Shown here piece by piece: positions 8,453 to 39,768 of a DNA stretch of 44,754 bases (position 1 is the first letter of the stretch; each line of letters begins with the position of its first letter). A model generated the notes under the pieces. That model made no database searches. It was given only the letters and a program-made list of their open reading frames with translations, and had not been told where the DNA came from. Made by a program: the position numbers and the translations under genes. This DNA is from Smithella sp. PtaU1.Bin162 (GTDB taxonomy: Bacteria > Desulfobacterota > Syntrophia > Syntrophales > Smithellaceae), in NCBI GenBank assembly GCA_002068015.1, contig MVRV01000179.1, positions 1 to 44,754 of the forward strand, read 5' to 3'.

Positions 8453-9934
8453 ATGCAATATTTAGAAAATCAACACAAGGTGAAGGTATGCAGTAGATGC
8501 GGCGTGAAATACAAACTGGATAATTTTTATTACCAGTCTCGGGCTAACAATGTCTTGAGGTCTGAATGCAAAGACTGCAGCAAGGGGTACGTTACCAGAA
8601 GACGTCAGTTGAGAAAAATTAATTTAGCTGGAGACAGTAATGAGCATTGCCAGCAATTGCTCGACAAGATAAAATCCAAAAAAGCCATGCTGGGGATAAT
8701 AGGACTGGGGTATATCGGGTTGCCGCTCGTGGCCGAATTCTGCAAAGCAGGCTTTCATGTGACCGGATTTGACATATCTCGCGAGAAGGTGGAGTCATTG
8801 AATGCGGGGAAAAGCTGTATCCGGCAAATAGACATAAATCAAATCCCGATGGGCATGTTCAGGGCGACTGGGGATTTTAAGCTCCTCGGCAAAATGGATT
8901 GCATTCTGATAACAGTACCGACTCCCCTCGGCAAAAACAGGGAGCCGGATATGAGCTACATTTTTGAGACCGTAAGATCAATATCAAGGACTCTGAAAAA
9001 GGGGCAGCTCATCGTCCTGGAATCAACGACATGCCCCGGGACGACGAACGGAGAAGTTCGCGATATCCTTGAATCAGAAGGACTGAAAGCCGGCGAGGAT
9101 TTCTTTCTTGCCTATTCTCCCGCAAGGGGAGACCCAAGCAATAAGGATTACAATATCAGGACCACTCCGAAGGTGGTTGGCGGATTTACGAACAAATGCC
9201 TGGTTGCGGCAGATACTCTCTATAATAGCATAGTGGGAAGAACTATACCGGTCTCGAGTACCAGTGTGGCAGAGTCTTCCAAACTCTTGGAAAACACTTA
9301 CCAGGCTGTAAACATCGCCCTTGTAAACGAGATGAAAATGATATTCGACCGAATGGGGATAAATATCTGGGAAGTAATTGAGGCAGCAAGGACAAAGCCT
9401 TTCGGTTTTCAAGCGTTTTATCCGGGTCCAGGCCTTGGAGGTCACTGTATCCCAGTTGATCCTTATTACCTTGCGTGGAAGGCTCGTGAATACGGATATA
9501 CGACAAAATTTATAGAGCTGGCAGGCGATATCAATACATTGATGGATGAATATGTTGTCGATAAGGTTATAAAAGCTCTCAATGATCATGGCAAGCACGT
9601 AAAGGGATCAAAAATAATGATTCTCGGGTTAGCCTACAAAGCAAACGCGGATGATGACCAGGAATCGCCGTCTTACCGGCTAATGGAGAAGCTTGAAGAA
9701 CTGGGTGGGGTTGTTGATTACAACGATCCACATATATCGGTGATAAGATCAAATGGGGAATATTCAAAATTTTCAGGTCGCAAATCAGTGCCTTTAAGCA
9801 AAAATTATGATCTTATTTTGATCGCCACGGCACACGACGAATACAAGAAGATTGATCTCCGGAAGCTAAATATCCCCATTGTCGATACAAGGCGAATCAT
9901 TAAAGAAAATTATAGGAAGCTTTACCTGGCCTGA
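8453..9934 (+). CDS. Nucleotide-sugar 6-dehydrogenase (WecC/WbpA-like) with N-terminal zinc-ribbon-like extension
   Basis: This 493-residue protein should oxidise a UDP-hexose or UDP-HexNAc to the uronic acid with NAD. The NAD-binding GLGYIG is at residues 84-89, the central dimerisation helix NTYQAVNIALVNE near 281-293, and the catalytic Cys332 in GLGGHCIPVDP. A C-terminal UDP-binding domain follows. Two features are odd. About 75 extra residues precede the Rossmann fold, with C13-x2-C16 and C39-x2-C42 resembling a small zinc ribbon. The usual SPER motif reads SPAR (residues 222-225), replacing the Glu expected near the active site. UDP-ManNAc is a plausible substrate because WecB and WecG homologues are in the same locus; UDP-glucose or UDP-GlcNAc cannot be excluded. 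The gene stands apart, 580 bases before the next one. Confidence 0.85.
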   Translation: MQYLENQHKVKVCSRCGVKYKLDNFYYQSRANNVLRSECKDCSKGYVTRRRQLRKINLAGDSNEHCQQLLDKIKSKKAMLGIIGLGYIGLPLVAEFCKAGFHVTGFDISREKVESLNAGKSCIRQIDINQIPMGMFRATGDFKLLGKMDCILITVPTPLGKNREPDMSYIFETVRSISRTLKKGQLIVLESTTCPGTTNGEVRDILESEGLKAGEDFFLAYSPARGDPSNKDYNIRTTPKVVGGFTNKCLVAADTLYNSIVGRTIPVSSTSVAESSKLLENTYQAVNIALVNEMKMIFDRMGINIWEVIEAARTKPFGFQAFYPGPGLGGHCIPVDPYYLAWKAREYGYTTKFIELAGDINTLMDEYVVDKVIKALNDHGKHVKGSKIMILGLAYKANADDDQESPSYRLMEKLEELGGVVDYNDPHISVIRSNGEYSKFSGRKSVPLSKNYDLILIATAHDEYKKIDLRKLNIPIVDTRRIIKENYRKLYLA

Positions 9935-20875: not shown

Positions 20876-21242
20876 ATAAAACCGTATCGGTGATAGGCCT
20901 CGGGTATGCGGGCCTTCCGGTTGCCATAGCTTTCGGGCTACGGAAAAGGACCATCGGTTTCGATATCAACAAAAACACGTATTGCGGAACTGAGGCAGGG
21001 GATAGACCACACCGGCGAGGTCACTTCAGATGAACTTGCCCGATGTTTCCCTTATTGCTTTCAATCAGTTAAGTCCCGCTGAGGCCGTGATCGTGGCTGT
21101 TGCCCACCGGCACTACAGAGAGCTGAAGCCGGACCAACTGAAAGCGTTAACAAACGGCAATTCCCTGGTGATGGACGTTAAAGGAATTTATGAACGGCAG
21201 GCCCTGGAGCCGCCGGGATCAGTATCTGGCGGCTCTAAATGA
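20872..21242 (+). pseudogene. Deletion remnant of a nucleotide-sugar dehydrogenase (WbpA/TviB-like)
   Basis: The ATG at 20872 opens a normal dehydrogenase N-terminus (VSVIGLGYAGLPVAIAFG, then IGFDIN). A frameshift near 20970-20978 moves homology to another frame, which reads RIAELRQGIDHTGEVTSDEL before ending. From about 21030 a third frame gives the C-terminal domain only: AVIVAVAHRHYRELKP, then VMDVKGIYERQ. About 300 residues, including the catalytic Cys and central dimer domain, are missing. The remnant keeps ATGA-type junctions with both neighbours, so the ancestor was part of this operon. It cannot be functional as a dehydrogenase. The intact copy at 8453 may now supply the activity. Confidence 0.82.
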
Positions 21243-22264
21243 GAAAAATACTGGTCACCGGGGCCGCGGGGTTTATCGGATTTCATCTGTCCAGGCGATT
21301 GCTAGCGGAGGGATACTTGGTCATCGGCCTTGATAATATGAATGACTATTATGACGTGAGATTGAAGGAGGCGCGCTTGTCCCAATTGACGCCTTTTCCC
21401 AAATTCCGATTCGTCAGGCAGGGACTGGAAGAACGGGAGAAACTGCATCAGCTCTTCGCCGAAGAAAACTTCGAGGTTGTCGTCAACCTGGCAGCCCAGG
21501 CCGGAGTGCGTTATTCTATTACCAACCCCTATGCCTATATCGACAGCAACATCGTTGGGTTCATCAATATCCTCGAAGGGTGTCGCCATAACAAGGTCAG
21601 GCATCTGGTCTATGCCTCCTCCAGTTCAGTCTACGGCGCCAACACCCAGATGCCGTTTTCCGTGCATCACAATGTGGACCATCCCGTTTCTCTCTATGCG
21701 GCAACTAAAAAAGCCAACGAGCTCATGGCGCACACCTATTCCAGCCTCTATGGCCTGCCCACCACCGGACTGCGGTTCTTCACCGTCTATGGACCTTGGG
21801 GCCGCCCTGATATGGCTCTCTTTCTGTTTACCAAAGCCATTCTTGAAGGCCGGCCGATTGATGTGTTCAATCACGGCCAAATGAAGCGGGATTTCACCTT
21901 CATTGGCGATATTGTTGAAGGTCTGGTAAGGGTGATCGACAAAATACCAAAAGGCAGTCCAGCCTGGAGCGGCGGGAATCCCGACCCCGGAACCAGTTAC
22001 GCTTCTTTCAGAATCTTCAATATCGGTAATAATAATCCCGTTGAACTTCTGCACTTCATCGAGGTGCTGGAAGGCTATCTTGGGAAAAAGGCTGTGAAAA
22101 ATCTGCTGCCACTTCAGGCTGGCGATGTGCCGACCACTTATGCAGATGTGGACGACTTAATCCATGAAGTGGGATTTAGACCGGCAACTCCCATCGAAAT
22201 GGGAATCAGACATTTTGTAGATTGGTATCGGAAGTTTTATTTCCCCAATGAAAGTGAGTGCTGA
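21239..22264 (+). CDS. NAD-dependent nucleotide-sugar epimerase, probably UDP-glucuronate 4-epimerase
   Basis: This 341-residue short-chain dehydrogenase/reductase has the extended-SDR nucleotide site GAAGFIG at residues 7-13. The catalytic triad is S in YASSSSVYG and YxxxK in YAATKKANE. The segment [17 protein letters not shown], then [13 protein letters not shown], and later [16 protein letters not shown] are hallmarks of the UDP-glucuronate 4-epimerase group. That enzyme makes UDP-galacturonate from UDP-glucuronate. The start overlaps the dehydrogenase remnant, the enzyme class that would make its substrate. The high-GC composition ends here; the next gene is visibly more AT-rich. UDP-glucose 4-epimerase activity is less likely. 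Confidence 0.85.
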
Positions 22265-22340: not shown

Positions 22341-23459
22341 ATGGAAGTTGGCATTATAACCATTCATAATCACCTTAATTACGGTGCTGTGCTTCAGGCA
22401 TATGCCTTGAATAAGGCTGTTCAAAAGATGGGGTATCAATGCCAAATCATTAACTGCAATTTTGAACCAGGGAAAGGACGGCAATTCTCAACATCAAAGC
22501 ACATGGGAGAACAGATCAAAAATCTTTATCTTGGATGGCATTGGGCAGCAAATAAAAGATATCGAGAAAAATTCCTCGATTTTGAACGACAACACATTCC
22601 CATAACAGATACGGCTTATAAAAACCTCGGACAGTTGACTAGTAAGCCACCGAGATTTGATGCATATATTGCTGGCAGCGATCAGGTCTGGCATCCGCTG
22701 CTGCTTGAACGTCAAATTGGCAAAGCATTCCATTTGTGTTTTGTTTCTCCTGAAAAATCTCGACTTATCGCATATGCACCCAGTTTCGGAGTAAATGAAA
22801 TTCCCGGAAGATATTTAGAAGAAATTAAAAAGTATCTTCTCCGGTATCACGCTTTATCAGCAAGAGAGAGAAAAGGACAGGAAATCATTTTTGCACTGAC
22901 AGGAATGAAGGCGGAGCATGTCGTAGATCCCACATTTTTGCTTTCCGCAGCAGAATACGAACCGGTGCTCCAATCCCCTTCTTATTCTGATGAATACATC
23001 CTGGTCTATCCTATGGAACTTGGAGAAGACGGAGTATTCTTAAGTTTGGTGAAAGAAGTTAAAAAGCAACTTTCCCTTCCCATTATTTGTGTTCTGCCGC
23101 GAAGTTTCAGTTACCGCTGGTTGCTCATTTCCGATAAGGTTGTTCTTGATGCAGGTCCTAAGGAATTTCTCGGTCTCTGTAAACATTCATCTCTCATCTG
23201 CACAAATTCTTTTCATGGCACAGCCTTCTCTCTTATCTATCAAAAGGATTTCCTAGGCGTTCCGCATACGCAGACAAATTCTCGAATTTACGGTATCTTG
23301 GAAAGATTAGATCTCTGCAGAAGGCAAATAACTAGTGTAAACTCAACCAGGATTAGAGAAATTTTGCAGGAACGTATCGATTATAGCCAGGTTACCCCGG
23401 TTCTTCAAGGCTGTATACAACAATCGCTAAAGTACCTGAAGAATGCGCTTGATTCATAG
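22341..23459 (+). CDS. Polysaccharide pyruvyl transferase family protein
   Basis: This 372-residue enzyme of the PS_pyruv_trans family (CsaB/WcaK type) is expected to add a pyruvate ketal from phosphoenolpyruvate to a sugar of the repeat unit. Family motifs are GIITIHNHLNYGAVLQAYAL at the N-terminus, AGSDQVWHP near residue 113-121, DPTFLL in the middle and the C-terminal CTNSFHGTAFSLIY containing the conserved His. No signal or membrane segment is present, so it acts in the cytoplasm on lipid-linked or nucleotide-activated sugar. It overlaps the following iron-sulfur gene by 17 bases. These two families are often neighbours in polysaccharide loci. Confidence 0.87.
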   Translation: MEVGIITIHNHLNYGAVLQAYALNKAVQKMGYQCQIINCNFEPGKGRQFSTSKHMGEQIKNLYLGWHWAANKRYREKFLDFERQHIPITDTAYKNLGQLTSKPPRFDAYIAGSDQVWHPLLLERQIGKAFHLCFVSPEKSRLIAYAPSFGVNEIPGRYLEEIKKYLLRYHALSARERKGQEIIFALTGMKAEHVVDPTFLLSAAEYEPVLQSPSYSDEYILVYPMELGEDGVFLSLVKEVKKQLSLPIICVLPRSFSYRWLLISDKVVLDAGPKEFLGLCKHSSLICTNSFHGTAFSLIYQKDFLGVPHTQTNSRIYGILERLDLCRRQITSVNSTRIREILQERIDYSQVTPVLQGCIQQSLKYLKNALDS

Positions 23460-24705
23460 ACTTTCAGCGGCAACGGTAAAAACTTATCCCCCTTGCTTCA
23501 TTCATATCGGCGATGGCCGATGTACAGGATGTTCTACATGTGCGAATTCTTGCTATAAAACAGCTATCGAAATTAAGCTGAACGAGGAAGGATTTTACAG
23601 GCCGACACTGCTGGAAGGACGATGTGACCACTGCATGCTGTGCTTGAAAAGCTGTCCGGTTCTAGTAGCATCAGGCCTCCGCGATGTGAACGGCAAACCA
23701 GCAGGTACATTCCAGATATATGCTGCATGGTCTACAGATCAGGAAGTTCATTATTCCAGTTCTTCTGGTGGTATATTCTCGGAACTGGCGCGTTTCGTTA
23801 TTGATAATTCGGGTTACGTATGTGGTTGTGAGTGGGGTGACGGTTTGAGACCACGTCATACTATAATTAGAAAGTGGACTGATGTCCCAAAGCTTCGCGG
23901 CTCGAAATATATACCCAGCTACATAGGTAACGATCTATTCCGTAATATAATCGCATTGGCAATGACGGGTAAAACGATCCTCTTTTGTGGAACGCCCTGT
24001 CAAGTTGCGGGACTCGCCCAGCTTGCTTCGCCAGAAGCAAGGAAAAATCTGATTCTTGTGGATTTAATCTGCCATGGAGTACCTTCGTTGACTTCTTTTT
24101 GGCTCTACTTGGACTGGAAATTCGGAGGGAAAGCTTTTTTAACGCACTTTTCTTTCCGGAACAAGGAAATATCCGTGCAAACAATATGTGCAAGGACCAA
24201 AAATGGCTTAAAATATCTCAACACATGCGGACAAGACCCATGGTTCAGAGCTGCCATGGTCTATCATTTATTCCTACAACGTAGTTGCTACAAGTGTTGC
24301 TTCGGGTCCTCGCTTCGTTATGGAGATATATCGTTGGGTGATTTTTGGGGAATCCCCGCGCAATGGCACAATCCTAGGGGGGATTCGCTCGTAATTGCTA
24401 ATACAAAAAAAGGGCAAGGTATATTGCAAAATTTGATTCTGACTAAACGTATTCACGCTCAATCTAGCGATTTAGAGACAGCAAGCCGGAAAATCGGAAG
24501 ACTTAAGGGAGTAGCATATCCCGTTCCGGCAAACAGAAATCTCTCATTCTGGTTGTTGAAAAGAGGCTGGTCTTTTTGTTGGTTTCATTACCTATGTTAC
24601 TATCCGATAAGCTTTAGAAAACGGCTAGCAGGTTATTTATATCGGCGTGTAATCCGGATTGTGCATATTTTACGACTAAATCAGCGACAAAGTCGCTATC
24701 TATAA
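23443..24705 (+). CDS. FrhB/FdhB-like iron-sulfur protein (coenzyme F420 hydrogenase beta-subunit family)
   Basis: This 420-residue protein has two 4Fe-4S ferredoxin clusters at the N-terminus (CTGCSTCANSC and CDHCMLCLKSCP). FrhB/FdhB family segments follow: SSSGGIFSELA, RGSKYIPSY, ILFCGTPCQVAGL and LICHGVPS. In methanogens the family moves electrons to F420. In polysaccharide clusters it commonly sits next to pyruvyl transferases with an unproven redox role, perhaps modifying a sugar or its acceptor. A further CYKC near residue 284 may bind metal. The gene overlaps the previous one, so the two probably work together. Reaction and substrate are unknown. Confidence 0.83.
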   Translation: MRLIHRLSAATVKTYPPCFIHIGDGRCTGCSTCANSCYKTAIEIKLNEEGFYRPTLLEGRCDHCMLCLKSCPVLVASGLRDVNGKPAGTFQIYAAWSTDQEVHYSSSSGGIFSELARFVIDNSGYVCGCEWGDGLRPRHTIIRKWTDVPKLRGSKYIPSYIGNDLFRNIIALAMTGKTILFCGTPCQVAGLAQLASPEARKNLILVDLICHGVPSLTSFWLYLDWKFGGKAFLTHFSFRNKEISVQTICARTKNGLKYLNTCGQDPWFRAAMVYHLFLQRSCYKCCFGSSLRYGDISLGDFWGIPAQWHNPRGDSLVIANTKKGQGILQNLILTKRIHAQSSDLETASRKIGRLKGVAYPVPANRNLSFWLLKRGWSFCWFHYLCYYPISFRKRLAGYLYRRVIRIVHILRLNQRQSRYL

Positions 24706-24712
24706 ATCAGTT

Positions 24713-26035
24713 TTGATATTTAAAATCCAATTGGTGTATTGGAAGGAATATCTGCGCACATTACTTGAGGGCAAGGCACGACGAAATCTGCTTATTTCGA
24801 TGTCCTCGCTTGCGGTGAGTGGCTTTGTTAGTACGGCTTTGCGATTTTTCGGAGGCATTATTCAGGGACGTTTTATCGGTCCGGAAACATTAGGATATTA
24901 CACAAAATTTACAATCCTCCCAGGATATCTTTTTTTTCTTCACTTGGGCGTTTTCACTTCTTTAGCCAGGCAATATCCCTACTTCATCGGCAAGGGGGAG
25001 AAAGAAACAGCATCATGCTATGCAGCTAACGCGCTGGGCTGGACGCATCTATTATGCATGATTCATACAGTCATATTCAGCATCCTGTGCATATGGACAG
25101 CAAGTCACGGGGATTTGTATGCTACCTTGGGTTGGGGTACGCAAATAATGGTTAGCATCTCATCTCTCTACATGTTTTATCTCGGGAGTACTTATCGAAA
25201 CAGCAATGAATTTGTTACATGGTCTAAAGCACTAGTGATTTCTTCAATCACATCGGTCTTGTTACTTCCTTTGGTGGCTTTGTATCATTTCGCTGGGGTA
25301 TGTGCGAGATATGCATGGCCCAATTTTGTATCTCTAATTTATGCTCATTTGCACAGACCTCTCAAAATCAAACCCCAATTTAATCAAGCTCTTTTGAAAA
25401 AAATGATCATCTTCGGGGCGCCGCTGATGGTTTTCGCATATATATCTACCAATCTTTGGGATGCGCTGACTCGTACATATATTTTGAGAATGGTTGATGA
25501 AAAGGCTCTTGGCATCTTCGCATTTTCAGGGATGCTTTGTACGGGCATAACGGTAGTGGCTACGTCAATAAGCCAGGTATTTCATCCACGAATTGCCATG
25601 CTGTACGGTTCATCACACAAAGATATGGCCATCAGCTTTCGGTATTGCACTAAATGTTGCATCTTTGGGGCCGCTTTGGTTCTTCCCTTTATTGGCCTGA
25701 CCTACTGGTTAATTGATCCCGTGATAAATTTATTTTTACCTAAGTACATCGAATGTATTCCGGTCACAAGATACCTTTGTTGGCTATCCTTAGTTCCTGT
25801 AATAGATCTTCCGAAACAGCTTCTGATTGTCGCAAAAAAGAAGAAAGAATTTGGAATATCCGTCGTAATTAGTTTTCTTTTATTCGTTTCTCTACTTTCT
25901 CTTTTTCCATTGTTAAGTGCGGACATAACTCTTGAAAAAATCGCAATAGCTACGACATTATGCAAACTATCATCTGTTTTCATTGCAAATGGCTTTGCAT
26001 GGCGTATGGCTTGGCTTGAATCGCGTTCCGTATAG
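24713..26035 (+). CDS. Wzx-type polysaccharide flippase
   Basis: This 440-residue integral membrane protein of the polysaccharide biosynthesis (MATE-like) superfamily should flip undecaprenyl-linked repeat units to the periplasm. About 12 hydrophobic helices span its length. The N-terminal part shows ALRFFGGIIQGRFIGPETLGYY, typical of Wzx start regions. Translation seems to start at TTG 24713, eight bases after the previous stop; a first ATG lies about 30 codons later inside helix 1, which makes TTG more likely. It is the only flippase in the locus and pairs with the polymerase candidate at 27024. Confidence 0.85.
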   Translation: MIFKIQLVYWKEYLRTLLEGKARRNLLISMSSLAVSGFVSTALRFFGGIIQGRFIGPETLGYYTKFTILPGYLFFLHLGVFTSLARQYPYFIGKGEKETASCYAANALGWTHLLCMIHTVIFSILCIWTASHGDLYATLGWGTQIMVSISSLYMFYLGSTYRNSNEFVTWSKALVISSITSVLLLPLVALYHFAGVCARYAWPNFVSLIYAHLHRPLKIKPQFNQALLKKMIIFGAPLMVFAYISTNLWDALTRTYILRMVDEKALGIFAFSGMLCTGITVVATSISQVFHPRIAMLYGSSHKDMAISFRYCTKCCIFGAALVLPFIGLTYWLIDPVINLFLPKYIECIPVTRYLCWLSLVPVIDLPKQLLIVAKKKKEFGISVVISFLLFVSLLSLFPLLSADITLEKIAIATTLCKLSSVFIANGFAWRMAWLESRSV

Positions 26036-26061: not shown

Positions 26062-27018
26062 ATGGATAGACAAGTTCCTGTTCTGCTGATCATTTTCAAC
26101 CGTCCCGAAAAGACCCGCAGAGTTATAGAAGCCTTGCAAAAGGTTAAGCCAACCCGGTTATTCGTCGCGGCAGACGGCCCAAGACCCGGTCGACCCGAAG
26201 ATATTGATAAATGCCGTCTGGCAAGGAAGGTTTTACTATCAATCGATTGGTCTTGTGATTTGCAGACCCGCTTTCTCGAGGAGAATGTCGGCTGTGATCC
26301 ATCCGTTTCTTCTGCGATAAATTGGTTTTTTGAGAATATTTCCCAAGGAGTAATTCTGGAGGATGATTGCATTCCAACTCCAGCCTTCTTTCATTTTTGT
26401 TCTGATCTATTGGAGCGTTATAAGGATGACAGGCGAATAATGCAGATATCAGGATTTTCGCCCTACCCTGAGAGGAGTTATCCTTTCGATTACCATTTCA
26501 GCCGCTCGTTTAGATGTTGGGGATGGGGCACATGGCGGCGCGCGTGGTCCTTATATGCTGATTCGTTGAAACGATACGAGGACAATCAATTCATCTATCA
26601 TATCGTTAAATCGTATTATCCATATTATCCTAAATATATAGAGAGATTAAAATTATATAAAGAGTTCATGAAGGGAAGGAGAGACAATTGGGATTTCAAA
26701 TGGAATATAGCATGTTACGCGCAGAATGCGCTTTGTATTGTTCCTGAAAAAAATCTTGTCACCAATATCGGCTTTGATGAAGAGGGGACGCACACTAAAA
26801 GGGGGAATCATTTGTTTGCCCGTATTCCTACTGATTCATTGGTTTTTCCGCTCCGTCATCCTTCATATGTATTTGCGGACGAAAGACCGGAACGGTTTTT
26901 GGAAAAAAGACTTTATCACAGTCTCCCCTTTAAAAGCCGATGCGCTAAATGGGCGCGCCATATTCTAGGTTCACTTGCGGAGTTCCATCAAAATGGACCT
27001 AACGCGAAGGTCCTGTAA
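26062..27018 (+). CDS. GT-A-fold glycosyltransferase (GNT-I / HlpA-like)
   Basis: This 318-residue soluble protein begins with PVLLIIFNRPEKTRRVIEAL, a GT-A nucleotide-sugar-binding start. The probable metal-binding acidic motif EDDC is at about residues 99-102. Beyond it are SGFSPYP and the aromatic FRCWGWGTWRRAW segment found in bacterial proteins annotated HlpA-like, which resemble N-acetylglucosaminyltransferase I. It probably adds one sugar to the repeat unit; donor and linkage cannot be read from sequence. It lies 27 bases after the flippase and six bases before the polymerase candidate. Confidence 0.8.
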   Translation: MDRQVPVLLIIFNRPEKTRRVIEALQKVKPTRLFVAADGPRPGRPEDIDKCRLARKVLLSIDWSCDLQTRFLEENVGCDPSVSSAINWFFENISQGVILEDDCIPTPAFFHFCSDLLERYKDDRRIMQISGFSPYPERSYPFDYHFSRSFRCWGWGTWRRAWSLYADSLKRYEDNQFIYHIVKSYYPYYPKYIERLKLYKEFMKGRRDNWDFKWNIACYAQNALCIVPEKNLVTNIGFDEEGTHTKRGNHLFARIPTDSLVFPLRHPSYVFADERPERFLEKRLYHSLPFKSRCAKWARHILGSLAEFHQNGPNAKVL

Positions 27019-29857: not shown

Positions 29858-30985
29858 ATGTTTAATTTCAAAACACTCCTCAGGGCGAACCGGAGCCGGA
29901 TAATTATGTCATTTGGCAATAATATTCCCTTAATTGGAACAGACAAAATAAAGCTAATGCTGAAGAACGCTTCAATGCGTCTTGAGCAAAAAATTGGATC
30001 TATCGATATTAAAACTCTTGAAATAGACGAAAGATATGCTGAAAGATATCTCCTGCCAAGAATAAGGAATCGTGAATATTGGTTGTCGAAATACGAACAA
30101 CATCTATTTTGGGCACTATCGTTAGATCCAATCAAAGGCATCCCCCTCAACAGACTTCGACTTATAGATCATGGTGCAGGCACCGGCTTCTTAGGTCTGT
30201 TAGCGAAGGAAGTAGGTATAGGAGAGGTTATTTGTAATGATATTGATGAAAAATTTTTGCAATTAACCCGTGAGATTGGAAGGGCAATCGGGGTAAGTCA
30301 TGACCACTACATTCTGAGTGATTATGGTGGCTTGATCGCATACCTTCGAAAAAATATGCAAGCTCCTACATTGTTTGTATCGGCCGATGTGTTGGAACAC
30401 ATATATGACATAGACGGATTTTTAAATTGTTTATCTTCATTATCTCATGAATCCATAGGTGTTGTAATGTCCTCTGGCGCGAATTATCTGAATATAAAAT
30501 ATCTGGTTAATGTTATCCCCAAACAAATAAAGGAAGAAAAGAAATGGCGGCTCTTGAGAAAGAATATCATTCTTGATGTTGTCCCCGCTATAGAGCATTC
30601 TGATCTTGAGTATCTCATTAAACGCACAAGAGGATTGATGAAAGATGAGATTGAGATTTTATGTGCAAATTGGGCTGGCGATGGCGAAGTCTATCGGAAA
30701 AAAAAGCGAGCGAACGATTTTGATCCTTATGGAACCAATACATGTGATCCTATGAATGGTTGGTGGGCAGAGCACTTTCTCAATCCTTCGGTGCTTGTGA
30801 CGATATTACGTGAGGCAGGATTTGATTCAAATATTATTTTCGGAGAATACAATACTCATCATAAATCCGCGGGGAAACGATTTCTTGCCAAGACCATCAA
30901 TAGGACTATCAATACAATCGGAAATTGTGCACTTCCATTTGCATCCTATTATGCCATGGTGGCATCTAAAAATGGACGGCAATAA
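29858..30985 (+). CDS. SAM-dependent methyltransferase family protein
   Basis: This 375-residue protein has a class I methyltransferase core in the middle: motif I reads LIDHGAGTGFLGLLA (near residues 100-114) and is followed by the acidic ICNDID end of strand 2. Residues 1-90 form an N-terminal helical extension. The segment SADVLEHIYDIDGFL matches the post-motif II/III region of Methyltransf_11/12 enzymes. It might O-methylate a sugar or a chain end. Its end overlaps alternative starts of the next glycosyltransferase. The target is unknown. Confidence 0.78.
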   Translation: MFNFKTLLRANRSRIIMSFGNNIPLIGTDKIKLMLKNASMRLEQKIGSIDIKTLEIDERYAERYLLPRIRNREYWLSKYEQHLFWALSLDPIKGIPLNRLRLIDHGAGTGFLGLLAKEVGIGEVICNDIDEKFLQLTREIGRAIGVSHDHYILSDYGGLIAYLRKNMQAPTLFVSADVLEHIYDIDGFLNCLSSLSHESIGVVMSSGANYLNIKYLVNVIPKQIKEEKKWRLLRKNIILDVVPAIEHSDLEYLIKRTRGLMKDEIEILCANWAGDGEVYRKKKRANDFDPYGTNTCDPMNGWWAEHFLNPSVLVTILREAGFDSNIIFGEYNTHHKSAGKRFLAKTINRTINTIGNCALPFASYYAMVASKNGRQ

Positions 30986-33690: not shown

Positions 33691-34917
33691 ATGAAAAAAA
33701 TTTTTTTTCAATATCTGTGCCGCTTAACCCCCACCTACTGGTTGACCACTGTATCTGAATCATATTCAGAAAATAAGTTAAACCATTTATTGCAAAACGC
33801 AGTTAGGACAACTTCATTTTATGCTGAGCTTTGTGAAACTAAGAAGAATTTATCATTAAGTGATTTCCCGATCGTTCGCAAAAAAGACATAGCTGGAAAA
33901 GAGGAAATGCTAATTCCTCGGCATTATAATCCTCGATTATTAAGGAAAGTATCTACCGGCGGAACTTCTGGATTATCGCTCAATATATATCGTTCGCCGT
34001 CAGACCCGATTAAGGAAAGTCGTTTTATAAACTACGCCCATGAACTTATTACTCCTTGGTACAATAGAAGAGTCGCTATACTGCGTGGGAATAAACCAAA
34101 CAATGGTATTTTCAGTTATTCCAATGGAACACTAACTCTCTCATCGTATGACCTGAACAAAAAAGTTATTACTACTTATTTGCAACTTCTTCGCCACTAT
34201 AAAATAACGACCCTCCATGTATACCCATCAGCAATTATGCTATTTTGCAAATACGTCGAAATCGGAACCGATTCAACACTTCCTCACCTAAAGGGAATTC
34301 TTTCCAGTTCCGAAGTGTTAACGAAATCTAATAAAACAACTCTTTTAAAAACATTTCCTGGAGTTGTCATCATTGACCTGTATGGGCAAAATGAACATGT
34401 TGCATTTGCTCTATCAAAGAATTTTGAACCGTATACATTTTATCAAAGTTACGGTGTAGTGGAGCTAATCGATACAGGAAAGAGACACGCAAATGATGCT
34501 GTCTGCGAAATAATAGCGACCGGCATGATTAATAGGGGAATGACTTTGATCCGCTATGCGACTGAAGATTATGTTACTGTATCCGACAAAGGTCAAATCA
34601 CTTCTATATTGGGACGGTCTCAAGATTATATAATAAATAGAGAGGGGGAAACAGCCATATGCATGCTGCACACACGTGATAAAACGCTTAAAAATGTTTT
34701 AGAATTTCAATTCTATCAGGATACCCCGGGTATCGTCGAATTCCATGTGGTGGTTAATAAAAAATTCAATGATACCGACAAGAAAATGATCGAAGAGGAC
34801 TTTTATACAACCTATTCTGATTTAATCAGAGGAAAAGTTGTGATTGTCGATAAAATCCCACGTACTTCATCAGGAAAGCTTAAGCGACTCATTCAAAAAT
34901 TATTCATCGAGGTGTAA
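33691..34917 (+). CDS. Adenylate-forming enzyme, CapK / phenylacetate-CoA ligase-like
   Basis: This 408-residue member of the acyl-adenylate superfamily resembles the CapK/PaaK branch found in capsule loci. The phosphate-binding loop STGGTSG is at residues 88-94 and an adenine-site segment IDLYGQNEHVAF is near 230. The C-terminal catalytic-lysine motif RTSSGKLKR is near 395-403. It should activate a carboxylate as an acyl-AMP and pass it to an amine, hydroxyl or thiol. One base separates it from the opine-dehydrogenase-like gene, so the pair is almost certainly co-translated. That suggests it activates or attaches the product of the partner, or activates a uronic acid for amide formation. The true substrate is unknown. 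Confidence 0.83.
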   Translation: MKKIFFQYLCRLTPTYWLTTVSESYSENKLNHLLQNAVRTTSFYAELCETKKNLSLSDFPIVRKKDIAGKEEMLIPRHYNPRLLRKVSTGGTSGLSLNIYRSPSDPIKESRFINYAHELITPWYNRRVAILRGNKPNNGIFSYSNGTLTLSSYDLNKKVITTYLQLLRHYKITTLHVYPSAIMLFCKYVEIGTDSTLPHLKGILSSSEVLTKSNKTTLLKTFPGVVIIDLYGQNEHVAFALSKNFEPYTFYQSYGVVELIDTGKRHANDAVCEIIATGMINRGMTLIRYATEDYVTVSDKGQITSILGRSQDYIINREGETAICMLHTRDKTLKNVLEFQFYQDTPGIVEFHVVVNKKFNDTDKKMIEEDFYTTYSDLIRGKVVIVDKIPRTSSGKLKRLIQKLFIEV

Positions 34918-34918
34918 T

Positions 34919-35923
34919 ATGAAGACGGTAGGCTATCCAATTTCTAAAAAGGAAAACGAAAAGCGTCGTGCGCTCCTTCCAAAAGATATTGTATGCATTA
35001 AAAACAAATCATGTATTTATATAGAGAAAGGATACGGAAATGTATTGAATATCCCGGATGAGGAGTACCTCATGGCGGGTATAAATGTCGAGGACCGGGA
35101 AGCTGTTCTTTCTATGGATATTATTTGTGATCCGAAAATCGGGGATGCGGAATATTTAAATGGACTTAGGAATCAGGCTATATTCGGCTGGATTCACGCT
35201 GTGCAAAACCAAAGAATCGCTGAAGCAATTCGAATCAATAATTTGCAAGCAATTGCTTGGGAGGAAATGTTCGTTAATGGGCGCCACACCTTCTGGCGTA
35301 ATAATGAAATTGCAGGTGAAGCAGCCATTTTGCACGCTTACTGTATACATGGTAGTTTCCCATATAATTCCAAGGTCGCAATTTTAGGTCGCGGTAATTG
35401 TGCCCGAGGCGCCATGAAAATACTTAATGCTTTGGGGGCCGATGTTACGGTGTACAATAAACATCAGGAGGGGCTTTTGCGTGAAGAGATCTCTCTCTAT
35501 GATGTTGTAGTAAATGCGATATTATGGGATACATCTCGCACAGACCACGTTATCTATAAGGATGATCTAAGGAGAATGAAGCGTGGGGCAATTATTATTG
35601 ACATTAGTTGTGATCGAAATGGGGCTATTGAAAGCTCAATACCAACGACAATACAAAGCCCGGTCTACGAAATAGAAAGCATAGTTCATTATGTGGTTGA
35701 CCATACTCCTACAATTTTTTATAAAGCCGCATCAGAAGTTTTAAGCCGCATAGTATCAGAACGGATGGATTTGCTTATAGAGGAAAAAATTTCGCATGAG
35801 TTACAGAATGCGATAATCATTAATCAGGGGAAAATATTGGACCAGAAGATTATTGAATATCAGAAGCGCGCGAATGATCGCCCGGAAAATAGAAGTAATC
35901 AATATACTCTATCAATCCAATAA
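34919..35923 (+). CDS. N5-(carboxyethyl)ornithine synthase-like dehydrogenase (alanine dehydrogenase/PNT superfamily)
   Basis: This 334-residue NAD(P)H-dependent enzyme shares the alanine dehydrogenase N- and C-terminal domains. Residues 5-22 (GYPISKKENEKRRALLPK) and DIICDPKIGDAEYL (67-80) are characteristic of N5-(carboxyethyl)ornithine synthase (CeoA type). So are IFGWIHAVQNQ (88-98) and AIAWEEMF with GRHTFWRNNEIAGEAA. The NADP-binding loop GRGNCARG is at 157-164. Lys73 and His93 match the pyruvate-binding and catalytic positions of alanine dehydrogenase. CeoA reductively condenses pyruvate with the side-chain amine of ornithine or lysine. In a polysaccharide locus, beside an acyl-activating enzyme, its product could be a glycan substituent. 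The family is well supported; the amino acid used is unknown. Confidence 0.82.
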   Translation: MKTVGYPISKKENEKRRALLPKDIVCIKNKSCIYIEKGYGNVLNIPDEEYLMAGINVEDREAVLSMDIICDPKIGDAEYLNGLRNQAIFGWIHAVQNQRIAEAIRINNLQAIAWEEMFVNGRHTFWRNNEIAGEAAILHAYCIHGSFPYNSKVAILGRGNCARGAMKILNALGADVTVYNKHQEGLLREEISLYDVVVNAILWDTSRTDHVIYKDDLRRMKRGAIIIDISCDRNGAIESSIPTTIQSPVYEIESIVHYVVDHTPTIFYKAASEVLSRIVSERMDLLIEEKISHELQNAIIINQGKILDQKIIEYQKRANDRPENRSNQYTLSIQ

Positions 35924-36039: not shown

Positions 36040-37875
36040 ATGCTTCCCGGACGAAACTTTGTCTATTACTTTTCCAGGTTCAGAAATGCCTCTTTTAGGG
36101 AAATTGCATACAGGTGCAGGCAAATTCTACTCGTAAAGAGATTAAGACGGCGTTTCAATTCCAAGCAACCCATATTGTCCGTCCCGGATTTGGAGCGTTC
36201 TCTTCTGGAATCGCTGGACGTACCGGACTTCACAATAGAGATAAATGATGATCTGTTAAAATCTATTTCGGACGGAATGATATTTTCTTTATCGGGGGAT
36301 GAAAGAGAAATCGCCCGGTTTGAGGCGTCCAGCAGAGGAAAGTTCTTTTATGATATTCACAATCCGGAATCTCTCGATATCCGTAAAGTGTGGGAGTCGG
36401 CACGGCTTCAACATATCGCAATACTGCTGATTGCTTCGGAGCAAGGCGGCAGTGGAATTGATTCGGATCATCTCAAATATTGTGCCAAAGAGAAATTGTT
36501 GGATTGGATTGAAAATAATCCTTTCCTGGCAGGACCGCATTATATGTCAGCGATGGAATGCGGTTTGCGAATACCCGTTTTTTTTTACGGTCTCAAGATC
36601 CTCGATAATTTAACTCCTGCTGAATCCGACGTTTTTAGCAGAGCAATTTATGAACATGCATGGTGGATATCGCGGCGGCTTTCTCTCTATTCATCCCTCG
36701 GAAACCATACTGTATGCGAGTGCATTGGCCTTCTGTTTGCCGGGGCTATTTTCAGCAACACCCGGGAAGGGAAATCTTGGCTCTCTGAAGGAAGGAAATT
36801 ACTTGAGAGGGAATGCCATCACCAGATTCTCGAGGACGGTGGACCTGCGGAGCAGTCATTTTCATATCACAGGTTTGTTCTTGATCTTTACTGGCTGGCT
36901 ACAAGTTTCCTTCAAAAAAATGCTCTATATGATTGCTCAGCCTGGAAAAAAAGAATTGCTAAGGGAGAGTATTTTCTGGCGAGTTTCACAAATTCTTCCG
37001 GACGCATTCTCTCTGTAGGCGACAGCGACAATGGTCACGCTGTTGGTCCCTGCGTACATCCGGTAAAGAGGGTTAAGAATAGCGAAAAATCGCGAAGAGT
37101 CTTATTTGAAAATTCAGGATATACAGTTATCCGTTTCGGGGATGATGCAGAACTCACTTTCGATCACGGACCCCTTGGCATGCCCCCTCTGTATAATCAC
37201 GGGCATGCTGATGCCCTATCAATTACGCTCTCAGTTCGAGGCCGCCGTATTTTAGTTGACCCTGGTACTTACAGGTACAATGGCGTTCATCAATGGAGAA
37301 AGTATTTTAAGGGTACGCGCGCCCACAACACTGTAAGTATTGACGGATTGGATCAGGCTGTACAGGCGACTGGTTTTATCTGGACGCGCCCCTACAAAGC
37401 GGCGCTGAAAAGAATAGAGGAGTCAGGAAATAATATCATTCTTGAAGCCGTTCATGATGGGTATATGCGGCTTTCCAATCGCACTGAGCACACCAGGCGC
37501 ATACATCTTTTTGGCGAATCACAGATCTTAATTGTGGACTCGTTTTCCGGAAGAGGTGTCCATGATTTCGAGTTGAACTACCATTTACATCCTGAGTGCG
37601 CACTTAATAAACAGGATGGATGGTGGGTTGTTCTGAGAGAAAATGTGATTGTTTATGTCAGGATGATTGAGGATGCTGATTTCATTCTCAACTTTGGGCA
37701 AGAGGATCCGCCTTTTTGCTGGTATTCTCCGGAGTACGGCATCAAGGAGAAAAGTGCGGCGCTGAGTTGCCGAAAGCGAGGCAGGGCTTCAGAAGTCTCT
37801 TTCACGACAGCAATCAGTGTCGACAAGCATATACCCATTAACAGTTATCTGGAACAGATTTTCCTTCTGGGATGA
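36040..37875 (+). CDS. Heparinase II/III-family protein (alginate-lyase-like)
   Basis: This 611-residue protein has an alpha/alpha toroid N-terminal part (about residues 40-340, including MSAMECGLRIPVFFYGL and LGNHTVCECIGLLFAG). The C-terminal part is a beta-sandwich carrying NHGHADALSITLSVRG, VDPGTYRYNG and TRAHNTVSIDG. These are hallmarks of the heparinase II/III family of uronate-cleaving lyases, common in polysaccharide loci. No signal peptide is evident at the chosen start, so it may be cytoplasmic, or the N-terminus may be misplaced. It could trim or edit the polymer, or act as a non-lyase modifying enzyme. Its 3' end overlaps wecG (ATGA). Confidence 0.85.
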   Translation: MLPGRNFVYYFSRFRNASFREIAYRCRQILLVKRLRRRFNSKQPILSVPDLERSLLESLDVPDFTIEINDDLLKSISDGMIFSLSGDEREIARFEASSRGKFFYDIHNPESLDIRKVWESARLQHIAILLIASEQGGSGIDSDHLKYCAKEKLLDWIENNPFLAGPHYMSAMECGLRIPVFFYGLKILDNLTPAESDVFSRAIYEHAWWISRRLSLYSSLGNHTVCECIGLLFAGAIFSNTREGKSWLSEGRKLLERECHHQILEDGGPAEQSFSYHRFVLDLYWLATSFLQKNALYDCSAWKKRIAKGEYFLASFTNSSGRILSVGDSDNGHAVGPCVHPVKRVKNSEKSRRVLFENSGYTVIRFGDDAELTFDHGPLGMPPLYNHGHADALSITLSVRGRRILVDPGTYRYNGVHQWRKYFKGTRAHNTVSIDGLDQAVQATGFIWTRPYKAALKRIEESGNNIILEAVHDGYMRLSNRTEHTRRIHLFGESQILIVDSFSGRGVHDFELNYHLHPECALNKQDGWWVVLRENVIVYVRMIEDADFILNFGQEDPPFCWYSPEYGIKEKSAALSCRKRGRASEVSFTTAISVDKHIPINSYLEQIFLLG

Positions 37876-38618
37876 GCAGGCTGAAGATTCTGAATATCTG
37901 GGTGGACCCCCTGTCTCGCGAAGAGGCCATTGCGCGGGTTTCCGGTTATCTTAAGAATGGCAAGCGGCCGCATGCGATCTTTGCTTCCAACCCGGAAAAG
38001 AACTTTAGCGTTCCGGCCGACCCTGATCTCTATAAGGTATATAAGGAAGCGGATATTCTTTTGCCTGATGGAGTAGGGGTTGTTTATGCAGCCCGTCTCC
38101 TCCATAATCGGACTTTTTCCAGGATTCCCGGTTCAGAGTTCATCTTTAATGTTTGTCAGCTGGCGGCTAAAGAAGGGTACGGCGTCTTTGTGTATGGGGC
38201 AAGGGAGGATGTGAATGCCGGTGCCGTCAAGAGCCTCAGAAAACGCTTTCAGGGATTGAGAATTGTTGGGAGGGCAAATGGGTATGAGAATCATCTTGAT
38301 GCTCTTGAACGGATTAACGCATCTAAAGCAGAAATCCTTTTTATCGCGCTAGGATCCCCCAAGCAGGAAAAATGGTTTTCCGATTTCAGGTCCGAATTGA
38401 AATACGTGAAAGTTGTACAGGGCATCGGTGGGACACTGGATACAATTACGGGTGCGGTGAAGCGCGCTCCGCATTTCTGGTGCAGACACAATCTGGAATG
38501 GCTGTACCGACTGATAACTGATCCTCGACGCATTTCTCGTCAAAAAGTGCTGCCGATTTTTGCCGGCTTAGTTTTATTAGAGAAAAGTAAACAAATTCTC
38601 GGTTTAAAAAGAGCATAA
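37872..38618 (+). CDS. WecG/TagA/CpsF-family glycosyltransferase (GT26)
   Basis: This 248-residue transferase adds an N-acetylmannosamine-type residue to undecaprenyl-PP-GlcNAc in the best-known members (WecG with ManNAcA, TagA with ManNAc). Conserved segments are ASNPEKNF, LLPDGVGVVYAARLL, GSPKQEKWF, and GIGGTLDTITGAVKRAP followed by HNLEWLYRLITDPRR. Length matches the family. WecA-like, WecB-like and nucleotide-sugar dehydrogenase genes in the same window make a ManNAcA or ManNAc donor likely. It overlaps the heparinase gene by four bases and precedes wecB by 43 bases. Confidence 0.88.
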   Translation: MSRLKILNIWVDPLSREEAIARVSGYLKNGKRPHAIFASNPEKNFSVPADPDLYKVYKEADILLPDGVGVVYAARLLHNRTFSRIPGSEFIFNVCQLAAKEGYGVFVYGAREDVNAGAVKSLRKRFQGLRIVGRANGYENHLDALERINASKAEILFIALGSPKQEKWFSDFRSELKYVKVVQGIGGTLDTITGAVKRAPHFWCRHNLEWLYRLITDPRRISRQKVLPIFAGLVLLEKSKQILGLKRA

Positions 38619-38661: not shown

Positions 38662-39768
38662 ATGATCAAAATTTTCCTTATAGCAGGTGCTCGTCCAAAC
38701 TTTATGAAGATAGCTCCGATAATCAGGGCTTGCAAGCGGTACGGCCAGGATATTTTAAATTATAAGCTTATTCATACGGGACAGCATTTCGACAAGGAGA
38801 TGTCCCAAGCTTTCTTTGATGACCTTGATATCCCCTCACCCGATTTTCACCTGAATGCGGGCTCAGGTACTCACGCTGTCCAGACAGCGAAGATTATGGT
38901 TGCCTTTGAGGATGTGTGCGAAAAAGAAAGGCCGGATTGCGTGCTGGTCGTTGGGGATGTGAATTCGACATTGGCGTGTAGCCTCGTTGCGAAGAAATTA
39001 AGGATAAAGGTCGCTCACGTTGAGGCGGGGCTTCGGAGTTTTGATATGGAGATGCCGGAAGAGATCAACCGCATGGTGACGGATTCCATTACGGACCTGT
39101 TCTTTGTGACGGAGGAGAGTGGGGTTGATAACCTTTTGAGGGAGGGCAAACCTCGCGAGAGGATTCATCTTGTCGGAAACGTCATGATAGATAACCTGTT
39201 TTACTCTGTGGAAAAACTACAGACAGAGCGGGGGCAGAATTTTCGTTTTTTCACCTGCAATGACGGTAACTATGCGTTTTTGACTCTGCATCGCCCTTCG
39301 AATGTGGACGATGCAGAGACTTTCCGGGAAATTGCCGGGGTAATGAATGAGATTGCAGATGAAATGCCCATTTATTTTCCTGTCCACCCCCGGACAAGAA
39401 AGATGATTGAGCATCATGGAATTTCTTTTTCCCCAAAGATTCACCGGCTTCCTCCTCTTGGATACGCAGAATCTCTTAAACTCTGGAAAGATGCTCGAAT
39501 TGTACTCACAGATAGTGGGGGGCTCCAAGAAGAAACGACTGCACTGGGGGTGCCATGTGTGACTCTAAGAGAGAATACGGAGCGCCCCATAACCGTGGAG
39601 GTAGGCACGAATATCCTAGCCGGGTCGAAACGTCAAGATATATTGTGTGCATACAGGGCCGCATTAGGCAGGAAGAAAGGATCGGTCCCGCCGCTTTGGG
39701 ATGGGAAAGCTGCCCAGAGAATAACGGAGTTATTGTTGGGGAATTTCAAGGATATTAGGCGCGTGTAA
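38662..39768 (+). CDS. wecB: UDP-N-acetylglucosamine 2-epimerase (non-hydrolysing)
   Basis: This 368-residue enzyme interconverts UDP-GlcNAc and UDP-ManNAc. Motifs are IAGARPNFMKIAPI at the N-terminus, HTGQHFDKEMSQAFFDDL, VVGDVNSTLACSLVA, HVEAGLRSFDMEMPEE and LTDSGGLQEETTALGVPCVTLRENTERP. All conserved acidic and His residues visible in these motifs are present. The start follows TGGAG with seven-base spacing. With WecG before it and a UDP-HexNAc dehydrogenase candidate at 8453, it would supply UDP-ManNAc for ManNAcA synthesis. Confidence 0.92.
   Translation: MIKIFLIAGARPNFMKIAPIIRACKRYGQDILNYKLIHTGQHFDKEMSQAFFDDLDIPSPDFHLNAGSGTHAVQTAKIMVAFEDVCEKERPDCVLVVGDVNSTLACSLVAKKLRIKVAHVEAGLRSFDMEMPEEINRMVTDSITDLFFVTEESGVDNLLREGKPRERIHLVGNVMIDNLFYSVEKLQTERGQNFRFFTCNDGNYAFLTLHRPSNVDDAETFREIAGVMNEIADEMPIYFPVHPRTRKMIEHHGISFSPKIHRLPPLGYAESLKLWKDARIVLTDSGGLQEETTALGVPCVTLRENTERPITVEVGTNILAGSKRQDILCAYRAALGRKKGSVPPLWDGKAAQRITELLLGNFKDIRRV

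Follow-up and report, generated by a model that had tools for sequence, protein, structure and literature searches.

A PaaK/CapK-like adenylate-forming enzyme and a CeoA-type dehydrogenase are encoded side by side in a polysaccharide locus of the window, that is, the whole 44,754-nt stretch of DNA analysed here. The close family to which the dehydrogenase belongs keeps company in polysaccharide loci, far beyond chance, with genes for amide ligases and for uronic acids. The substrates, the kind of uronic acid (ManNAcA-type or GlcA/GalA-type) and the activating role of the PaaK-like enzyme are inferred; we lean, with some reserve, towards a reading in which the CeoA-type enzyme makes an opine amino acid that is amide-linked to the uronic acid, with PaaK-like activation in the window. 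A few O-antigens contain N-(1-carboxyethyl) amino acids, to which the literature searched assigns no genes. Were the reading true, opine-type decorations would become predictable from genomes, and the replacement of an ATP-grasp ligase by an adenylate-forming enzyme would suggest a role for PaaK/CapK-like proteins, which are common in polysaccharide loci. The gene pair is defined and occurs in cultured and sequenced bacteria, which makes the pathway directly testable.

The gene pair and its setting

The PaaK-like reading frame begins with ATG and its last codons are GTG TAA. A single base (t, 34918) lies between this stop codon and the ATG of the dehydrogenase gene, exactly the one-base gap reported in an earlier note on this DNA. 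The ORF listing gives a longer dehydrogenase frame with a TTG start at 34844; the ATG at 34919 is taken as the start because the homologue consensus M-K-T-I-G-F-P-I-S begins at the equivalent position. The surrounding genes encode Wza, Wzz, a tyrosine kinase, a Wzy-like protein, a pyruvyl transferase, glycosyltransferases, WecB, WecG and GDP-mannose/fucose functions, which bears out the note's placing of both genes in a sugar-assembly block. The G+C content is 39-46% across 22-38 kb of the window, as against approximately 52% on parts of either side, and a CeoA-like gene was found in none of 154 other genomes sampled from the same order, from which we surmise that the block was probably acquired. 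The features under discussion are collected in Table 1.

Table 1. Window genes bearing on the proposed glycan modification
Feature	Position	Strand	Size and basis of assignment
PaaK/CapK-like adenylate-forming enzyme, candidate carboxylate-activating partner	33691..34917	+	408 aa; motifs, PaaK fold, neighbour order
CeoA-type (N-(1-carboxyethyl) amino acid synthase-like) dehydrogenase	34919..35923	+	334 aa; AlaDh_PNT domains, tree, fold, residues
Heparinase II/III-like protein, recurring near PaaK-like genes of polysaccharide loci	36040..37875	+	PF07940/PF16889
WecG/TagA/CpsF-family glycosyltransferase	37872..38618	+	TIGR00696 over cut-off
UDP-GlcNAc 2-epimerase (WecB type), possible UDP-ManNAc supply	38662..39768	+	TIGR00236 over cut-off
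Nucleotide-sugar 6-dehydrogenase, nearest UDP-ManNAc/GalNAc types, possible uronic-acid source	8453..9934	+	TIGR03026 over cut-off
SDR epimerase, possibly UDP-uronate 4-epimerase	21239..22264	+	nearest solved chains 5u4q, 6zl6

The CeoA-type dehydrogenase

The dehydrogenase possesses the N and C domains of the AlaDh_PNT family, both over their Pfam gathering scores, and scores 82 bits against the alanine dehydrogenase model TIGR00518, where the cut-off is 391.85. Relatives were gathered with a three-row profile by scanning one genome per species. At least 30 loci, spread over at least five phyla, hold relatives that are 46-58% identical to the window protein; a gap separates these from the next matches, which reach at most 31%. 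In a maximum-likelihood tree of 57 proteins the window dehydrogenase falls inside the 30-member close group, among its ligase-linked relatives. The close group, the NCBI-named CeoA proteins of Gram-positive plasmids and the 30%-identity group lie on one side of a branch with a support of 100 that has the alanine dehydrogenases on the other; the name CeoA-type is taken from the NCBI-named proteins, the assayed L. lactis enzyme being one that could not be placed in the tree. Matches from the window's own phylum (E ~1e-41; L010-L017) branch with AlaDH-like proteins, outside the CeoA-type group.

The AlphaFold2 model (mean pLDDT 92) finds its best match in an alanine dehydrogenase with NAD and pyruvate bound (2vhx; Z 33.4 over 312 residues, 2.3 A), and a lysine-forming saccharopine dehydrogenase matches too, at a lower score (Z 26.5). 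Arg16, Lys73, His93 and Asp232 fall on conserved AlaDH positions, which we take to be the pyruvate-binding and catalytic ones of that family. In contrast, Trp91, Asn128-Asn129, Asp204 and Asp261-His262-Thr263 are common to most CeoA-type proteins and different in AlaDH. As to NADPH specificity, basic residues follow beta-2 in most CeoA-type members (YxRK; YNKH in the window), yet several retain Asp there. The enzyme is CeoA-type: tree, residue pattern and TIGR00518 score rule out a plain alanine dehydrogenase, and the hallmarks of N5-(carboxyethyl)ornithine synthase noticed earlier hold, since the tree places the protein with CeoA-type proteins and not, as the earlier note had allowed for, with ordinary alanine dehydrogenases. 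It shares its AlaDH/PNT-type fold and catalytic residues with Lactococcus CeoA (N5-(carboxyethyl)ornithine synthase, EC 1.5.1.24) and groups with the NCBI-named CeoA proteins, but it is only about 30% identical to those so named on Lactococcus plasmids and sits in a separate clade largely tied to amide ligases.

The PaaK/CapK-like enzyme

By its core motifs and fold the upstream protein is a member of the PaaK/CapK adenylate-forming family. It carries STGGTSG (residues 88-94), YGQNE (231-235), GRSQDYI (308-314) and RTSSGK (391-396), the first and last of which had already been pointed out, and the key positions of these motifs are invariant in a five-row alignment. Foldseek places its model, a modest one with a mean pLDDT of 69, on PaaK enzymes. 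The match to Pfam AMP-binding is weak (27.0 bits, slightly below the gathering score of 29.9), and no NCBIfam PaaK (phenylacetate-CoA ligase) equivalog matches the protein. The viral collections searched yielded confirmed relatives of neither this protein nor its CeoA-type neighbour.

Amide ligases beside the close relatives

Genes neighbouring the 30 close relatives were called mechanically and clustered, and recurrent groups were named with Pfam; the relatives are those among the matches listed, and 29 of the 30 loci could be analysed. In 15 of these 29 the gene directly next to the CeoA-like gene on the same strand encodes an ATP-grasp ligase, whereas a random non-ligase gene drawn from the same loci is ligase-adjacent in a mean of 2.8, and none of 5000 draws reached 15. 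Where a locus carries at least three glycan labels the ligase is the immediate neighbour in 11 of 13 cases, and in the remaining two (L029 and L038) it lies at most three genes away. The corresponding figure for the 30%-identity group is 0 of 43 analysable loci. One further close locus, L042, was dropped at gene calling and is not counted; there a RimK-like ligase ends 30 bases upstream of the CeoA-like match.

The commonest neighbour is a TupA-like ATP-grasp protein (14 of 14 tested match PF14305), whose start and stop codons overlap with those of the CeoA-like gene in L022, L027 and L043; the others are ATP-grasp proteins of the sugar-transfer (PF14397) and RimK-like kinds, remote members of the latter being related to RimK/LysX by profile. 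Genes for CapA-like proteins, nucleotide-sugar dehydrogenases and SDR epimerases are also frequent nearby. On an E. coli capsule plasmid (L003) a RimK-like gene overlaps the CeoA-like gene in a locus that includes UDP-glucose dehydrogenase, and in a second strain the NCBI annotation of the same stretch includes an "ATP-grasp domain-containing protein." Three E. coli chromosomes carry a 71% identical CeoA-like gene; two of these copies were inspected and lie in insertion-sequence-rich islands, adjacent to a hypothetical gene and near a fragment of an "ATP-grasp fold amidoligase." One decayed island (L119:11000-17748) holds the CeoA-like gene, amidoligase and flippase fragments, and many insertion sequences.

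About ten of the 30 close relatives have neither ligase nor glycan neighbours, and those of Clostridium akagii, C. acidisoli, Lactococcus hodotermopsidis and the Clostridiaceae loci L040 and L041 stand outside glycan loci. In L040 and L041 the free-standing CeoA-like gene is preceded by a sodium/solute symporter-like gene, which hints at a free-opine role there.

A PaaK-like enzyme in the place of the ligase

Within the 44,754-nt window a search for a hidden ATP-grasp gene gave noise only, and a TupA search of the source genome found no match, but it found none for its control set either and so does not establish absence beyond the window. The position of the partner beside the CeoA-type gene is held by the PaaK-like enzyme. 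Among the matches listed, the order PaaK-like then CeoA-like, adjacent and on the same strand, occurs only in the window, in L046 (Krumholzibacteriota) and in L047 (Paludibacteraceae), and in L029 the PaaK-like gene lies two genes downstream of the CeoA-like gene. The adjacency described in the earlier note does recur, but it is an ATP-grasp ligase that usually takes the partner's place; outside the window its frequency of 2 in 29 was equalled or exceeded in 332 of 5000 random draws and is not significant alone. Beyond the window the pair turns up in just two loci, with a third holding both genes close together, and we therefore treat the activation step as an inference. A separate acceptor enzyme, such as an adenylating enzyme alone may need, was not identified within the window. 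The L047 genes (L047:7112-10957) form a short operon of two PaaK-like genes and one CeoA-like gene, with a feoB-like neighbour and no glycan genes.

Most other PaaK-like relatives are encoded in polysaccharide loci that lack a CeoA-like gene. Such loci often hold heparinase-like, WecB/WecG or nucleotide-sugar dehydrogenase genes, a Hepar homologue being found near the PaaK-like gene in L109, L111, L113, L114, L117 and L118. In L115 (9065-12331) the PaaK-like gene adjoins that of a glutamine amidotransferase of the asparagine-synthase type, and the two may be a further amide-forming pair. A relative in a VPS-like locus of Pseudoalteromonas (L116) has the motifs, fold and polysaccharide-locus setting in common with the window protein, but PaaK/CapK-like relatives, this one included, are just 20-30% identical to it and L116 has no CeoA-like gene. 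The vpsH gene of V. cholerae is, we believe, annotated as encoding a CapK protein, and offers a lead. In V. cholerae VPS, 2-acetamido-2-deoxyguluronic acid (GulNAcA) is amidated by glycine, and the authors suggest that it could derive from ManNAcA (PMC3901696). The presence of PaaK-like genes in polysaccharide and VPS-like loci, taken with this glycine-amidated uronate, makes activation of a uronate by the PaaK-like enzyme likely, though unproven.

Proposed pathway and alternatives

The R isomer of N-epsilon-(1-carboxyethyl)-lysine is assigned to Proteus O13. The R isomer of carboxyethyl-lysine is listed among the components of compared Proteus O-antigens (PMC11989651), and the O-antigen of Providencia rustigianii O14 contains N-epsilon-[(S)-1-carboxyethyl]-N-alpha-(D-galacturonoyl)-L-lysine (PMC10609480). 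In Campylobacter jejuni the TupA-like domain at the C-terminus of Cj1438 is proven to amidate glucuronic acid at its C6 carboxyl (PMC11800379). This domain, which makes GlcA amides, belongs to one family with the 14 TupA-type proteins encoded beside the close relatives but is without counterpart in the window, where the PaaK-like enzyme stands in that place. Our literature searches returned nothing direct on the genes for carboxyethyl-lysine O-antigens, on a CapK/PaaK role in glycan loci or on VpsH/VpsI.

An O14-type residue requires exactly an opine synthase and a uronate amidoligase, and the close family would accordingly be expected to provide N-(1-carboxyethyl) amino acids for uronate amides. 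By reductive condensation the CeoA-type enzyme would join the side-chain amine of Lys or Orn to a keto acid, pyruvate being the likeliest, and give an N-(1-carboxyethyl) amino acid with its alpha-amine left free; this amine would then form an amide bond with a uronic acid of the repeating unit, at the carboxyl of the latter. The adjoining ATP-grasp amidoligase would make the amide in most relatives; to the same end, the PaaK/CapK-like enzyme of the window would adenylate and so activate the carboxyl. The predicted product is of the type seen in P. rustigianii O14 and Proteus O13, where N-epsilon-(1-carboxyethyl)-lysine is amidated to GalA; those are other organisms, and the uronic acid of the window may be of the ManNAcA type. 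As first put forward, one gene made an opine-like amino acid and the other activated it or a uronate for attachment; the CeoA-type grouping and the relatives' tie to ligases and uronic-acid genes speak for this, while the adenylate-forming enzyme has turned out not to be the usual partner. The chances seem to us evenly balanced that there exists a widespread, horizontally moving module in which a CeoA-type synthase and an exchangeable activating enzyme (TupA-like, RimK-like, sugar-transfer ATP-grasp or PaaK/CapK-like) decorate surface glycans with opine-type amino acids in Bacteroidota, Clostridia, Fibrobacterota, Lentisphaerota and on E. coli plasmids.

The CeoA-like enzyme could make the glycan's opine amino acid while the PaaK-like enzyme serves some other step, such as the acylation of an amino sugar or the coupling of some other amine to the uronate by an amide bond. 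The prevalence of PaaK-like relatives in polysaccharide loci devoid of a CeoA-like gene, where heparinase-like, WecB/WecG or nucleotide-sugar dehydrogenase genes are frequent companions, and the L115 copy beside an amidotransferase fit such a division of labour; the one-base spacing in the window, the same order directly upstream of CeoA-like genes in two other lineages and the failure to find another amide ligase in the window tell against it, and we consider it unlikely, if a serious contender. A different substrate for the CeoA-like enzyme, be it the amine (such as that of an amino sugar) or the keto acid (such as 2-oxoglutarate), and hence a decoration other than carboxyethyl-Lys/Orn, strikes us as improbable: the counterparts of the AlaDH pyruvate and catalytic sites and the CeoA-type second shell are conserved, even if the literature searched gives no known substrate for any enzyme of the close clade and the fold is common to AlaDH, transhydrogenase and saccharopine dehydrogenase. 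Production of a free opine, as solute or small metabolite, with the glycan-locus position incidental, would suit the relatives that stand outside glycan loci, yet an amide ligase is the immediate neighbour in nearly all glycan-locus relatives (the 11 of 13 given above), and we hold this to be very improbable.

Candidate uronic-acid supply and other window genes

For the pathway that we favour, opine synthesis followed by amide formation on a uronic acid, several window genes could furnish the acceptor. A ManNAcA-type uronic acid may replace or accompany the GlcA/GalA type suggested by the epimerase, a possibility raised by the WecB and WecG genes together with the 6-dehydrogenase, whose nearest solved chains are 4r16, Cap5O and 3g79. 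The UDP-glucuronate 4-epimerase named in the earlier note is plausible from its nearest chains but unproven, as no NCBIfam equivalog model passes for the SDR epimerase.

Elsewhere in the window, two frames (24713-26035 and 26062-27018) have no Pfam match and a third (29858-30985) shows a weak methyltransferase match only. At 22341-24705 a polysaccharide pyruvyl transferase gene adjoins that of an FrhB-like iron-sulphur protein, and homologues of both are likewise adjacent in L038.
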